From: Fibrobacter sp.
GTDB taxonomy: Bacteria; Fibrobacterota; Fibrobacteria; Fibrobacterales; Fibrobacteraceae
Direction of reading: 5' to 3'
NCBI GenBank assembly: GCA_021443065.1
Contig: JABUUR010000060.1
Location: forward strand, 1 to 12,139
Length of the DNA: 12,139 nucleotides
The notes below the pieces were generated by a model that saw nothing but the letters and a program-made list of their open reading frames with translations, was not told where the DNA came from and did not search any database. The translations under genes were made by a program, and so were the position numbers. This document shows positions 7,864 to 12,055 of this stretch, in pieces (the first letter of the stretch is position 1; the number at the start of each line of letters is the position of its first letter).

Positions 7864-10572
7864 TTAATCGCATTTTTTGCGGTCTTGCCATGTGCTGTCG
7901 TTGAACAGTTGACCTTCGCTTAAACCGTATTTCTCTTGAATGCCCGCCTCACGGATGGCATTTTCGATGGAGATTTTCCCAAGTATTGCCTGGGTGTAGA
8001 TCAGTACCTTGCGGCGTACGGTTTCGGCGTCTTCGGTTAGCATTTCAAGTCGGAAATGGCTTACGTTCAAAGCCCGAAGTTGGGGCATCAATTTCAGTGC
8101 AGATTGGGGGTGCCCCACGAACAAAGTATTGCGGCATTCCGCATCGGATTGCAAGAAGTGGCGCTCTCCCTTGTGATCCTGGATTTCGACCTTGTGCTTG
8201 GTGCAGATCTTTCCGCATTCCGGAAAGCGGCGGCCAGTGGTAAGGCTGCGGGCGAAGGCGCAGTACTGGGAATGGAATGCGGGCATGTACTGGTGTAGCG
8301 TCAGTTCCAGACGGCTTCCGTCGATGTTTTTTAGCAAGTCGAAAAGTTGGGTGCTGTTCAGGTCCCAGGAGGGGTGCAGCGTTTGCAGGCCCTGGTCCAG
8401 GAGCCACTGGTAGCTTGCACTGTTGGCGGCGTTCAGACTGTAGTCCCCGTAAAGAGGGATCCCGCAGTCCTTGAGCACGGAGAGTGCGCCCAGGTTTCGC
8501 ACCAGGGCGAAATCGGGGCAAAGTTCCAGAATTTTACGAAGGTAGTGGTTTTCGCCCGGCTTGTGGATGCGTAAGGTGGCCATGCCCGCCTTGAAGCCAA
8601 GGTCCCGAATTTGCTGGAGGGGTTCGTCGTATTTGACGCCCCAGTCAAAGTCCATGATGACATTGTCTACGGGGAGCCCCCTTAGGGCGGCAATCTGCTC
8701 CGGATTGCGGACAAGGACCGAAATGACGGGGCTTGGGGCGGTTGCGGGCTGAATAGCCTCGAATCGTTCCATTGCAGAATGGCCCGTCGCTTCTGTTGCA
8801 GAATGGGCCGTCGCTTCTGTTGCAGAATGGACCGTCGCGAAAGACCTTCGGGTGTTTTCTGCGAATTTTGCAGAAATGCCCTGCAGGAAATCTCGGCCAC
8901 CTTGGGCACTGATATGCATCTCTTTCCGCTGGAGCAGCTTTTCTTCCAGTTCCTGGATGGCGGTCTGGCGCAGGTTTCGCAGCACCTTCCCGTGGATAAA
9001 GGGGGAACCCTCGACATATGTGACGAAGGAGCCTAGTTCGTAGGCGGAGGCCGCAAGTGCTCCCAGTTCTTTTTTTGCAAGAGCGTGTAGTGTTGACTGT
9101 TCCACCGGATTCTTGGAGGCCTCGAGCGTGGTTTCGCTTGTGACCGTCGCCTCCAGGCGCTTGCCGTTGATAATGGTCCAGGCTTTTAAAGTCAGCGGCC
9201 TGCCTACAGCCCCCGAAAGTTCCATGTTCAGGGGGCGTTTCTTCTCTTGGTTGCGGTCGGAGAACGTTTTTCGCAGTTCCTTTTCCAGTGCCGGGGAATC
9301 GTTGCGGAACACGTCCATGTGGCGGCTAATCTGGCCCATGTCAAAATCGCGGCTGAAATCCAGACGCAGCAGCGGCCCCGTTCCGCGAAGGCCGTCTCCC
9401 CGTTTTGAATGGGGGTTGTGTACAATCTGTGCTCCGTACAGGCGACTGCCGCAACTGACTCCGAAACGGTAATCCTCGAAAAGGATGCCGTCGCCGTTGC
9501 AGGGGAGGGGAATGTCCCTGCTGTCGTCCAGGGCCACAAATAAGGAACTGCGGTCTGTCTTTACGACCTTTCCCAGGTACATGCCGTGATGATTGCTGAA
9601 TGTGCCGTTGACAAGTTCCTGATGGTTGTCTCCGTCCAGCCAGCCTGTGGTAAGCCCGCGGGAAAACAGCACCTCCAATGGTTCCCTGTCCTTCGGGGTT
9701 AAACTTTCGTCTACCTCACCCAATCTTTCGTCTTTCGTCTTTCGTCTTTCGTCTAACCCATCCAGAGCCTTGCGGTAAGCCCGTGAAACGGCTGCCACGT
9801 ATTCGGGGCTCTTCAAGCGGCCTTCCACCTTAAAGGATTCAACTCCGATTTGAACTAGTTCCTTCAATTTGGGCAGGGCGCACAGGTCACGGGTGCTGAA
9901 CAGGTACTGGGCGTCTGTTTCGGTGTGTTCCTTGCCGTCTACGAAAATGCGGTAGGGAAGGCGGCAACTTTGGGCGCACTGGCCGCGGTTTGCGGAACGC
10001 CCGCCGAAGTTTTCGCTGGTGAGGCACTGCCCGGAATAGGAGACGCAAAGCGCCCCGTGGATAAAGACTTCTATTTCCAAGTCGGTGCCCGCCTTGACAG
10101 CGGCAATTTCCTTGACGGAAAGTTCGCGGCTTAAAACCGCCCTGTTGAACCCGATGGGCTTAACCAGGTTTACGCCTTCGGCACTGGCCAGCGTCATCTG
10201 GGTGCTGGCATGTATTTCCTGCTCGGGGCAGATGGCCCGAATCAAGCGGGCAAGGCCGATATCTTGAATGATGAATGCGTCGGGCTGCAGTTCGATAATA
10301 TTTGCCAAAAATTCCGGCAGGTCTTGAAGTTCCCGCTCAAACACAAGAACGTTCATGGCCAAAAAACTTCGGACCCCGTGGGCGCGGGCGTAGCGGATCA
10401 TGGCGCCTACGTCTTCCAATGAAAAATCTTCGGTCCTGCCACGGGCGTTCCAGTGGGGAACCCCGAAGTACACTGCATCTGCACCGTTTTTCACGGCGGC
10501 TTCCAACATTTCCCAAGTGCCCACAGGGAGCAAAAGTTCCGAGATGCCCGAATAGTTCGTTTGTTCTTGCAT
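7864..10572 (-). CDS. tandem U32-family protein, probable RNA cytidine/uridine hydroxylase (RlhA/TrhP type)
   Basis: The 902-residue protein carries two U32 modules around a DUF3656-like middle. Module one (about 10-270) has LLLPVGTWEMLEAAVKNGADAVYFG, HASTQMTLAS (121-130), the U32 signature EVFIHGALCVSYSGQC (168-183) and SFKVEGRLKSPEYV (247-259). C176, C183, C199 and C203 are spaced as Fe-S ligands of this family. The middle (about 295-560) is DUF3656-like. Module two (about 605-880) repeats the pattern: TLHQYMPAFHSQYCAFARS, CGKIC, then SDAECRNTLF. Once called peptidases, U32 proteins such as RlhA (23S rRNA ho5C2501), TrhP (tRNA ho5U34) and UbiU/UbiV are now seen as prephenate- or oxygen-independent hydroxylases, so an RNA hydroxylase role is inferred. 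E. coli RlhA is about 650 residues and lacks the second module. Two in-frame tandem repeats lie near residues 273-284 and 579-601. The start is the only ATG compatible with the family N-terminus. Confidence 0.88.
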   Translation of the reverse strand: MQEQTNYSGISELLLPVGTWEMLEAAVKNGADAVYFGVPHWNARGRTEDFSLEDVGAMIRYARAHGVRSFLAMNVLVFERELQDLPEFLANIIELQPDAFIIQDIGLARLIRAICPEQEIHASTQMTLASAEGVNLVKPIGFNRAVLSRELSVKEIAAVKAGTDLEIEVFIHGALCVSYSGQCLTSENFGGRSANRGQCAQSCRLPYRIFVDGKEHTETDAQYLFSTRDLCALPKLKELVQIGVESFKVEGRLKSPEYVAAVSRAYRKALDGLDERRKTKDERLGEVDESLTPKDREPLEVLFSRGLTTGWLDGDNHQELVNGTFSNHHGMYLGKVVKTDRSSLFVALDDSRDIPLPCNGDGILFEDYRFGVSCGSRLYGAQIVHNPHSKRGDGLRGTGPLLRLDFSRDFDMGQISRHMDVFRNDSPALEKELRKTFSDRNQEKKRPLNMELSGAVGRPLTLKAWTIINGKRLEATVTSETTLEASKNPVEQSTLHALAKKELGALAASAYELGSFVTYVEGSPFIHGKVLRNLRQTAIQELEEKLLQRKEMHISAQGGRDFLQGISAKFAENTRRSFATVHSATEATAHSATEATGHSAMERFEAIQPATAPSPVISVLVRNPEQIAALRGLPVDNVIMDFDWGVKYDEPLQQIRDLGFKAGMATLRIHKPGENHYLRKILELCPDFALVRNLGALSVLKDCGIPLYGDYSLNAANSASYQWLLDQGLQTLHPSWDLNSTQLFDLLKNIDGSRLELTLHQYMPAFHSQYCAFARSLTTGRRFPECGKICTKHKVEIQDHKGERHFLQSDAECRNTLFVGHPQSALKLMPQLRALNVSHFRLEMLTEDAETVRRKVLIYTQAILGKISIENAIREAGIQEKYGLSEGQLFNDSTWQDRKKCD
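8773..8838. repeat. 24-bp tandem repeat inside the U32 gene, 2.75 copies
   Basis: Copies at 8773-8796 and 8797-8820 differ at one base. A third copy matches for 18 bases (8821-8838) before diverging. The unit is eight codons long, so the protein (minus strand, residues about 579-601) reads HSATEATA-type octapeptides in tandem, and any change in copy number keeps the frame. The repeat falls in the linker between the DUF3656-like region and the second U32 module. Confidence 0.9.
9724..9754. repeat. 7-bp tandem repeat (TCTTTCG)4 plus 3 bases inside the U32 gene
   Basis: Four perfect TCTTTCG units plus TCT run from 9724 to 9754, and a separate CTTTCGTCTA at 9704-9713 looks like a decayed extra copy. 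The array is read on the minus strand as DERRKTKDER (residues about 273-284), between the first U32 module and the DUF3656-like region. Because the unit is 7 bp, gain or loss of one or two copies would shift the frame, and only steps of three keep it. Confidence 0.92.
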
Positions 10573-10631: not shown

Positions 10632-10859
10632 ATGAAGAATTTTTTACTGCCAAGACTCGTTGTTGTCCTGTCCCTTTTCGTACTGGCCTTTGCAGGGTGT
10701 TCCAACGAGGAGAAAATGGCTGAAATTGCCCGTTTGACGCAAGAAAATGCAGCACTTGAAAATAATATCCAGTCACTCCAGCTCAGTCTGGATTCCCTCA
10801 AGGCATACGCGGATTCTGTAAATGCAGTCTATGAAAAACTGGACCTGAAATCAAACTAG
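10632..10859 (+). CDS. small coiled-coil lipoprotein
   Basis: The 75-residue precursor has a lipoprotein signal peptide (basic MKNFLLPR, hydrophobic 9-21) and a lipobox FAGC with the lipidated cysteine at C23. The mature 53 residues (SNEEKMAEIARLTQENAALENN onward) show heptad spacing of Leu/Ile/Ala/Val with many Glu/Gln/Asn, predicting one continuous helix that forms a coiled coil. Size and shape recall the Braun lipoprotein Lpp, but there is no C-terminal Lys-Lys or Arg-Lys for peptidoglycan linkage: it ends KLDLKSN. It is not recognised as a named family. It is monocistronic: its own promoter-like element lies 4 nt upstream and a hairpin terminator begins 2 bp after the stop. Confidence 0.85.
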   Translation: MKNFLLPRLVVVLSLFVLAFAGCSNEEKMAEIARLTQENAALENNIQSLQLSLDSLKAYADSVNAVYEKLDLKSN

Positions 10860-10861
10860 CA

Positions 10862-10892
10862 CCCCAAGTCTACCCGATTTTGGGGATTTTTT
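10862..10892 (+). terminator. rho-independent terminator after the lipoprotein
   Basis: CCCCAA (10862-10867) pairs with TTGGGG (10880-10885), followed by A and then six T (10887-10892). It begins 2 bp after the lipoprotein stop. It separates the lipoprotein transcript from the promoter at 10903. Confidence 0.75.
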
Positions 10893-10902
10893 GTGAATAA
10901 AT

Positions 10903-10934
10903 TTTGGATTGGGCCGAAAAATTATCTATATTAC
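10903..10934 (+). promoter_or_regulatory. strong promoter for the candidate RNA / leader
   Basis: TTTG (10903-10906), 20 nt, then TATATTAC (10927-10934) fits the Bacteroidota architecture TTTG-N19-21-TAnnTTTG with two mismatches at the end. Read as sigma-70, TTGGAT (10904-10909), a 17-nt spacer and TATATT (10927-10932) also fit. Both readings put the transcription start near 10939-10940, exactly at the first base of the closing stem of the candidate RNA. Confidence 0.65.
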
Positions 10935-10939
10935 CGCCC

Positions 10940-11074
10940 GTGACTGCATGGTCCACCGCTACGGTGGGGACCCTAAACCCGCTTCGCCGGCCCTATTGCC
11001 CGAAGCCAACTAGCCGTCAAGCCTCCAACGTAGGCGTTATAAAGATGGCCCACAACTAACATAAATTCAGTCAC
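10940..11074 (+). ncRNA. candidate structured RNA (independent sRNA or 5' leader), unknown family
   Basis: The stretch between the lipoprotein terminator and the gene at 11138 can fold into a closed multi-hairpin structure. GTGACTG (10940-10946) pairs perfectly with CAGTCAC (11068-11074). Inside are hairpin 1 (10950-10972: GGTCC/GGACC plus ACCG/CGGT or CCACC/GGTGG), hairpin 2 (10981-11006: GCTTCG/CGAAGC enclosing GGC/GCC) and hairpin 3 (11013-11049: GCCGTC/GATGGC with one G-U pair enclosing GCCT/AGGC). A weak ACCC/GGGT hairpin with TTTATTT (11073-11093) follows and could end the RNA. I do not recognise it as 6S, SRP, tmRNA, RNase P or a riboswitch class known to me. It may instead be the 5' leader of the gene at 11138. 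From 11094 to 11125 I see nothing else. Confidence 0.5.
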
Positions 11075-11137
11075 CCTGCCTGCGGGTTTATTTCCAGCCT
11101 GCATGTACGGTCAACCCTTACTTATGAGGTGCCCCGA

Positions 11138-11806
11138 ATGGAATACATCGCAATCGCACTGTCTCTTGTAGCAGTGATTCTGTGCATTGTTATCCTGTCC
11201 AAGGTTAACAAGCTCCTTACTATGCTTCGTACCCCGATTTTCAAGAAGCTCACACCGGACATGAACTTGAAGCCCAATTCCCGTCGCCCGATCAGCGCAC
11301 AGGAAATGGCTCAGCGCGGTGAACGCAACAACAAGGAAAATCGCCAGAAGGAAAACAACGGTAAGGATCGTCCTTCCAAGGACAATCGTGACAAGGCTGC
11401 TCCTGCCCAGCAGGCCGCCCCCAACCGCGACCGCAACAACGACCAGCGCCAGGACCGCGGCAATCGCCGTGACCGTCGCGAAGGCCGTCCTGAACGTCCT
11501 CGTCGTGAAAACAACTTCGAAGCCCAGGGTGCAGCCCCTGCATTTGCACCTGCTGCTGCTCCGGCCGCTCCCGCAGCAAGCGAAGTTCCTGCTCCCGCTG
11601 TAGAACGCCGCCCCTTGGCTCCGCGTATTCCGGTTGAAACTCCGGCCGCTCCCGCAGCAGTGCCAGCTCCTGCCGCACCTGCAATCCCTGCAGTTGCCGA
11701 AGCTGACGTCGCTCCTGTCGAAAATACTTTTGATCCGTCCAAGGTTCGCTACGGCCGCCGCAACGTGATCAAGAAGGCTCCGGAACTCTCCGACGACGAA
11801 GCATAA
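11138..11806 (+). CDS. membrane-anchored disordered Arg/Ala/Pro-rich protein, unknown function
   Basis: I do not recognise this 222-residue protein. Residues 3-21 form one transmembrane helix (IAIALSLVAVILCIVILS) followed by basic residues, so the rest is probably cytoplasmic. Residues about 45-127 are a charged, Asn/Gln/Arg/Lys/Asp/Glu-rich polyampholyte. Residues 131-190 are Ala/Pro-rich with an exact 20-bp internal DNA duplication (11559-11578 and 11640-11659). A distinct tail (197-222, TFDPSKVRYGRRNVIKK then the acidic PELSDDEA) looks conserved in character and may bind a partner. I chose ATG 11138 over GTG 11129 because GAGGTG (11126-11131) then lies at an ideal 6-nt spacing as ribosome binding site. 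The basic disordered part could bind nucleic acid or ribosomes, but that is speculation. Upstream is the candidate RNA; downstream is a strong terminator. Confidence 0.8.
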   Translation: MEYIAIALSLVAVILCIVILSKVNKLLTMLRTPIFKKLTPDMNLKPNSRRPISAQEMAQRGERNNKENRQKENNGKDRPSKDNRDKAAPAQQAAPNRDRNNDQRQDRGNRRDRREGRPERPRRENNFEAQGAAPAFAPAAAPAAPAASEVPAPAVERRPLAPRIPVETPAAPAAVPAPAAPAIPAVAEADVAPVENTFDPSKVRYGRRNVIKKAPELSDDEA

Positions 11807-11832
11807 TCGCGTAACGCTTTAAAGCTAAAAGG

Positions 11833-11864
11833 AACCCCGATCCGAAAGGACCGGGGTTTCTCTA
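11833..11864 (+). terminator. rho-independent terminator after the disordered membrane protein
   Basis: AACCCCG (11833-11839) pairs with CGGGGTT (11852-11858), with an inner TCC/GGA stem around a GAAA tetraloop, one A-C mismatch, and then a T-rich tract (TTTCTCTATT). It starts 26 bp after the stop codon. It is the strongest terminator in the window. Confidence 0.85.
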
Positions 11865-11887
11865 TTGTCATCGCGGCCACAGCCGTT

Positions 11888-12055
11888 GTTGTCATCCCGG
11901 CCTCTGCGCCGGGATCTCAGCCGGAGTTGTCATCCCGGCCTCTGCGCCGGGATCTCAGCCGGAGTTGTCATCCCGGCCTCCGCGCCGGGATCTCAGCCAC
12001 AGCCAGAGTTGTCATCCCGGCCTCTGCGCCGGGATCTCAGCCGGAGTTGTCATCC
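11888..12055. repeat. REP-like array: four 38-bp dyad repeats plus a truncated fifth
   Basis: Full copies start at 11888, 11926, 11964 and 12008, each beginning GTTGTCATCC, and a fifth at 12046 stops after 10 bases. Every full copy contains the inverted repeat ATCCCGGC/GCCGGGAT around a 6-base loop, so each can form a hairpin. Copies one, two and four are identical; copy three differs at a loop base and in its last few bases, with six extra bases before copy four. A degenerate TTGTCATC lies at 11865. An open frame of 86 codons across the array is a by-product. The rest (12056-12107) holds only small dyads, TCCAC/GTGGA at 12053-12065 and CACT/AGTG at 12091-12103. Confidence 0.9.

Follow-up and report, generated by a model that had tools for sequence, protein, structure and literature searches.

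A structured mRNA leader overlapping the ribosome binding site of a membrane-protein gene in Fibrobacter: an undescribed cis-regulatory RNA family

The window analyzed in this work is a 12,139-nt stretch of a Fibrobacter contig (JABUUR010000060.1); genera are given by number, g1 being the window's own genus. The subject of the analysis is a leader element of ∼200 nt (10940-11143) that reaches past the start codon (11138) of the downstream gene. The features of the leader are as follows (P1 to P6, helices; SD, Shine-Dalgarno):

10927..10934, + strand: promoter box TATATTAC (equivalent in relatives, TAAATTTG); its first base lies 13 nt 5' of P1
10940..10946, + strand: 5' strand of P1, GUGACUG, at the predicted transcription start (fold, covariation)
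10950..10972, + strand: P2 hairpin with one bulge; both-side changes in 6 of 9 pairs
10981..11006, + strand: P3 hairpin, variable in length and sequence
11013..11049, + strand: P4, made of GCCGUC/GAUGGC, an asymmetric internal loop and an inner stem
11068..11074, + strand: 3' strand of P1, CAGUCAC (fold, covariation)
11076..11110, + strand: P5 hairpin, separated from P1 by 0-2 nt, with apical loop UAUUUCC at 11089-11095; found in the representatives of all seven leader-bearing genera
11092..11096, + strand: P5 loop strand UUCCA, proposed partner of the start region 11139-11143 (UGGAA)
11116..11129, + strand: P6, small hairpin CCUU/GAGG that contains part of the SD
11126..11131, + strand: SD GAGGUG; GAGGU is invariant in alignments A1 and A6
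11138..11806, + strand: gene of a 222-aa protein with no Pfam family, the putative controlled gene

Upstream of the leader, a terminator candidate (stem CCCCAA/TTGGGG, 10862-10885, followed by ATTTTTT) was spotted by eye, and it is known by eye alone because its 12-nt loop exceeds the range of our terminator scan. That pattern scan, limited to loops of 3-8 nt, returned no + strand terminator in 10800-11900. A hairpin at 11833-11858 may be the terminator of gene 11138; 3' of it, ∼4.5 copies of a 38-bp unit (CAGCCGGAGTTGTCATCCCGGCCTCTGCGCCGGGATCT), each with a GC-rich palindrome, fill 11880-12055. Tandem repeats are also present in the U32 peptidase gene at 9724-9754 (7-bp TCTTTCG, 4.4 copies) and 8772-8838 (24-bp unit, 2.8 copies), where they add repeated residues to the protein.

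Leaders of related loci were gathered by a pattern that demanded a promoter-like box, the start of P1, GAGGT, and ATGG. The resulting 82 distinct leaders cover 130 of 137 loci; the other seven are G024 and G061 with their named records, and G091. The G024 and G061 leaders are absent from the set, as the pattern does not match their box. Dropping the GAGGT and ATGG requirements yielded no extra leader and no other second codon. A TAnnTT box (TAAATTTG-like) has its first base 12-13 nt 5' of P1 in all 82 leaders, a conservation that is partly by design, since the pattern itself required the box and let its spacing vary only within 8 nt. We take this box to resemble the -7 box of Bacteroidota. The first-pass annotation of this DNA had predicted a promoter here; the box before P1 is present, with the search having demanded it. 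It is not of the E. coli sigma-70 type, for which a scan gave 0 matches. Judged from the sequence, transcription is predicted to start near 10940, at P1.

Next to the box, GTGACTG (10940-10946) pairs perfectly with CAGTCAC (11068-11074), and three hairpins are enclosed between the two strands. The 135-nt stretch folds with -44.2 kcal/mol (z -3.05; 1 of 200 shuffles equally good) and the full leader, L088, has a z of -2.85 (1 of 100 shuffles equally good), in support of the closing stem that the first-pass annotation had placed at the predicted first transcribed bases.

Homologous stretches were found by DNA search in 24 of the 25 genus genomes, the window's own included, with a chance-level match only in G017; the same search gave nothing convincing among 16 genomes outside the genus. 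The 24 leaders were aligned, and 21 of them make up alignment A1; omitted were L014, which has a long insert, and L006 and L009, which nearly duplicate L005 and L008. Of 924 cells in A1, 92.2% are paired, and slid controls drop to 37-48%. Both-side changes were counted in 17 of 44 pairs (shuffled mean 10.6) and in 61 cells (shuffled mean 19.0), and 0 of 500 shuffles reached either number; the counted structure (P1, P2, outer and inner P4, P5, P6) was derived from the same alignment on which it was scored. The further pair types were not above the shuffles (34 vs 37.8). The compensatory changes that had been proposed as the check on this fold are thus found in relatives, in P1, P2, P4, and part of P5. 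Support for the outer pairs of P5 is weak in this count, and P6 offers no covariation test within the genus because all four of its pairs are invariant. RNAalifold on A1 recovers P1, P2, P4, the inner part of P5, and the SD hairpin. A cross-genus MAFFT alignment misaligns P1 of g10 and was excluded from the counts.

To these counts we can add single folds of 21 representative leaders from seven genera, computed without coding sequence and judged by eye. All 21 have a loop closed by P1 with at least two hairpins, P5 within 0-2 nt after it, and a small SD hairpin. Genus covariation and this like fold in representatives of seven genera together uphold the three hairpins and the four-way-junction shape that had been read from the single sequence. 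The letters of P1 are fully replaced among genera (GUGACUG/CAGUCAC, GUGGUUU/AAACCAC, and GAAGUCG/CGACUUC), and P1 pairs completely in 13 of 13 leaders; these helix strands were hand-picked and serve as illustration, the reliable counts being the covariation in alignment A1. With 30 nt of coding sequence appended, P1 pairing had a mean of 0.94 in g1 (56 leaders) and was 0.57-0.58 in L073 and L074, and P1 was nearly lost in the g10 leader L119 (0.03). By eye, we counted 9 UNCG-type P2 loops among the 21 leaders of A1. In the junction of two leaders, L014 and L080 (from G011 and G068), an insert of ∼80-90 nt separates P4 from the 3' strand of P1; their predicted P1 pairing is 0.95 and 0.99, respectively.

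The internal loop of P4, GYUAKUAA opposite AA, is conserved and is retained in g1, g10, g12, and g16. In L002 and L004 (G009 and G024) an extra small hairpin sits within this loop, suggesting room for additions on the 3' strand of the loop. We rejected a sarcin-ricin or UAA/GAN reading of the loop, as the sequences fail a strict fit. The g8 leader has P4 reduced to a simple hairpin, L122 has no recognizable P4, and by eye the P4 motif was not seen in g11 or in the g9 leaders L072 and L073, where P1, P5, and the SD remain. In L071 the MFE model breaks P4; the covariance model nonetheless aligns it. In the aligned set (40 of the 64 distinct segments), P5 and its UUCC-type loop are kept, as are GAGGU and the start region. 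These observations bear on whether the element might be a metabolite or ion riboswitch, with the P1-P4 junction as aptamer and P5/P6 as expression platform. A multi-branched domain closed by P1, the conserved asymmetric loop of P4, and the SD close by would all suit such a switch. The aptamer of a riboswitch, however, is usually its best-kept part, and here the P4 core is plain in g8 and not seen in g11 and in two g9 leaders that keep P1, P5, and the SD; moreover, every accepted place of the RNA precedes one gene, and no metabolic domain was recognized in its product. We consider a riboswitch quite improbable.

The distribution of the leader was examined with a covariance model (R1), which found matches in 74 of 80 genus genomes and in all 40 of those with at least 90% completeness and at most 5% contamination. 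Among 150 genomes drawn from the phylum, R1 matched six more, in g8, g9, g12, and g16. By eye, the leader was also recognized upstream of the gene in further genomes that R1 had missed or that had not been drawn: six of g10, one of g11, and a third one of g9. Discarded before counting were the RNA matches of G155 (E 0.06), G158 (E 0.45), and G140 (lying within other sequence), weak second matches of G044, G050, G006, and G077 (E 0.42-0.63), and one of two match pieces of G091, where the contig ends within the leader. Each genome has one leader, except G018 (7% contamination) with two, each 5' of a gene copy. Directly behind all 81 accepted R1 places, in 80 genomes, lies the orthologous gene, and the six genus genomes lacking an RNA match (62-89% complete) also lack a gene match. 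A protein profile of the downstream gene matched 113 of 167 phylum genomes, of which the weak matches outside the family are uncertain because the protein is of low complexity.

These results bear on two readings offered by the first-pass annotation, a free small RNA and a cis-acting leader of gene 11138. A promoter-like box of its own and a closed structure of ∼135 nt are what a free small RNA would have, but the pattern scan showed no terminator-like site on the + strand before the gene, conservation reaches AUG and codon 2, and not one accepted place lies away from the gene; this reading is most improbable. The element had been taken to end at 11095, with a weak hairpin plus TTTATTT following it. 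That hairpin is P5 of the leader with its U-rich apical loop, not a terminator, and conservation continues through P5, the SD hairpin, and the start codon. The cis-acting reading is the one borne out, by the adjoining gene at every place and by the conservation that covers SD and start codon. We concluded that the leader is a new cis-acting RNA family in one bacterial family, which we take as Fibrobacteraceae.

The P5 apical loop, extended by two bases on each side, was tested for pairing with the start region, taken from the base preceding AUG through the two codons that follow AUG. The loop (UUCC) and the start region (AUGGAA) form at least five consecutive Watson-Crick pairs in 81 of the 82 distinct leaders; the remaining one forms four, the fold program having picked a smaller loop. 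In controls run for five typical loops, a fraction of 0.051-0.154 of 156 genes reached at least five pairs, these genes being mechanical ORFs with an SD-like motif from one complete Fibrobacter genome. Of the 82 leaders, 80 use GAA as second codon; the controls have GAA in 8 of 156 and GAG in 0 of 156, so that the use of GAA over GAG means little alone. Two lineages depart from the common form. The g9 leader L122 has AUGGUAA and the loop CUUUACC, which restores a UUACC/GGUAA pairing. In L014 of g1, the start AUGGAUAA faces the loop CCAUUUCCA in a shifted register (UCCAUU/AAUGGA), and its relatives L083 and L087 have the loop CUUUUUCC with AUGGAA. Such loop changes alongside codon 2, in two lineages and once in a shifted register, are suggestive of compensation; elsewhere the P5 loop and AUGGAA hardly vary. 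A pseudoknot between the P5 loop and the start codon is, in our judgment, likely, and the match of UUCC with AUGGAA is a simple, testable prediction.

The same data can be held against a constitutive 5'-end stabilizer, in which P1 at the first base would block 5'-end-dependent decay and the rest of the leader would be scaffold. Its two arguments are the place of P1, which begins at a distance of 12-13 nt from the first box base in every one of the 82 leaders, and the complete pairing of P1 in the hand-picked leaders despite its changing letters. The near-invariant P5 loop, the surroundings of the SD, and the compensating changes of loop and start are left unexplained by a stabilizer, and we give this alternative little credence.

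The SD GAGGUG is presumably complementary to the 3' end of 16S rRNA. The members of alignment A6, in which GAGGU is invariant as in A1, were collected with GAGGT required; a search without that requirement gave no exception. For the first four SD bases, the predicted unpaired probability had a median of 0.038 in the 82 leaders vs 0.299 in the 156 controls, and an SD as buried was found in 12% of controls; the small P value of this comparison should not be taken literally, because the leaders are related. In single leaders of g9, g10, g11, and g16 the values were 0.30, 0.24, 0.24, and 0.27, respectively, near the control median. With 30 nt of coding sequence included, ∼0.7 of the SD pairing in g1 was with downstream bases and not with P6, as estimated by subtraction. 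We also considered a switch whose opened P1 would free its 3' strand to mask the SD; upon deletion of the first 9 nt, SD pairing shifted little and inconsistently (mean unpaired in g1, from 0.07 to 0.11), and the switch was rejected. In the computation, then, leader structure overlaps the ribosome binding site by way of P6 and the complementarity of P5 loop and start, the burial being weak outside the genus.

The product of gene 11138 has one N-terminal hydrophobic stretch (residues 3-21, Kyte-Doolittle 2.91), an Arg/Asn-rich middle segment of low complexity (17-27% Arg in 12 of 12 homologs), and an Ala/Pro-rich stretch; at the C-terminus, a motif around RYGRR is conserved. Pfam assigned no family to it and no metabolic or nuclease domain was recognized; its NCBIfam matches are all far below cut-off. 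Among 118 protein matches, most of them without an organism in the name, those that bear one are Fibrobacter, plus one Fibrobacteraceae bacterium, and the four named relatives of the gene are Fibrobacter sp. MAGs. From its composition, the product may be disordered and may bind RNA. An Arg/Asn-rich, family-specific membrane protein of this kind deserves study.

The best explanation of the whole, held with moderate confidence, is a leader that traps the start codon and is perhaps autogenous. The mRNA of gene 11138 would start at P1, which in the computed fold closes the multi-branched domain of P2, P3, and P4. P5, 0-2 nt on, may stack on P1, and its loop UUCC(A), complementary by computation to the start and second codons (UGGAA), would pair with them in the cell to form the pseudoknot, with the SD held in the P6 hairpin. 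This closed state would exclude the ribosome. As trigger, the gene's own membrane-anchored, Arg/Asn-rich product might bind the P1-P5 domain in a negative feedback. The parts of this scheme differ in strength. Control of translation by the leader is very probable; since the translation start appears to be hidden, the leader probably sets the amount of protein, and so tight a translational leash would mean a product that is probably harmful in excess. The autogenous trigger is a tentative proposal, possible rather than probable; we prefer it on two grounds, namely that a single gene follows the leader, with a product that looks like an RNA binder, and that conservation is stronger at the ribosome-binding end than in the junction domain.

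In some lineages another gene occupies the place of the leader. In g13, g14, g17, and in g5, which belongs to another family, a gene for a small membrane protein lies 5' of the orthologous gene. The protein (L125, L130-L135) has 65-70 aa, with the g13 consensus VAFVTxVLGISLFLLLTFILSLLSRINLLERQI. Judged by the aligned start, the first codon of its gene would be a GTG located where P1 would lie in L125, L131, L132, L134, and L135, and an ATG in L133. In the five loci with GTG at the predicted transcript start, the small gene seems to be leaderless. A profile of the small protein matched 20 of 167 genomes, in g13, g14, g17, g5, and g6 plus one dropped as chance. Not accepted were G102, whose match (E 0.006) falls within a frame of 986 aa, and the weak additional matches of G162 and G146. 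The profile gave 0 matches in the seven leader-bearing genera, so that RNA leader and small gene are mutually exclusive in these data, and this alternation of RNA and protein gene in one slot among relatives makes the origin of a regulatory RNA traceable. A bolder reading, which we rate as unlikely, is a new RNA class that arose in the slot in which sister lineages have the small gene, directly after the same promoter. Its leader, kept as a start-codon pseudoknot to which a branched domain may be added, would sense a scaffold protein that binds RNA, is anchored in the membrane, and is translated from the same mRNA; if true, it would be a feedback loop at the membrane.

We also searched for known identities of the element. 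The first-pass annotation could not fit it to a known RNA class, and this holds: Rfam 15 gave 0 matches above the gathering cut-off in the window and in 10 plus 7 related loci, and at E up to 10 only three chance-level matches appeared. SRP RNA and RNase P RNA were covered only by these Rfam scans of the loci. tmRNA was rejected, being located elsewhere in the genome (above cut-off in 5 of 6 genomes), and so was 6S RNA (RF00013), which had no match at E 0.001 in any of 6 genomes. 6S RNA is a long single hairpin with a central bubble. The leader shares with 6S RNA and tmRNA that it is structured, at a similar size or below theirs, and differs from both in being branched and joined to an mRNA. 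A leader peptide read from the first-base GTG was rejected as well: in 64 leaders neither the length nor the sequence of this frame is conserved (mean 29.9 codons vs 12.6 and 28.0 in the other frames). In the open-access literature on RNA of Fibrobacter and Fibrobacteraceae and on the mechanism, we did not find the element described. We concluded that the leader is a real, undescribed cis-regulatory RNA family with respect to Rfam 15 and the literature searched. It adds a strongly supported structured RNA to those described.

Comparative genomics has reported 104 orphan bacterial RNA motifs (PMC2864571). The main text of that article contains 'Fibrobacter' just once, as 'Fibrobacteres' in the title of a reference. 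As an orphan motif like those, the leader is defined by covariation and gene context; the difference is that the leader has no Rfam match above cut-off.

For the proposed mechanism, the nearest known systems are leaders of ribosomal-protein genes. The E. coli rpsO/S15 and alpha operon S4 leaders are autogenous and use pseudoknots. The closest mechanism that we found in print is the entrapment idea for E. coli S15 (PMC4137082). Like the rpsO/S15 and S4 leaders, the present one is structured, overlaps the ribosome binding site, and is attached to its own gene. It differs from them in structure and in its product, a membrane protein and not a ribosomal one, whose binding is here only proposed. 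Autoregulation through the own transcript, as proposed here, also has parallels among ribonucleases. RNase E exerts feedback via a stem-loop in the 5' part of its own mRNA. For RNase Y, cleavages were reported in two regions of the rny mRNA, one of them in the first ∼100 nt of the reading frame (PMC10303841). In both of these cases an enzyme acts on its own mRNA, whereas the product of gene 11138 has no recognized nuclease domain.
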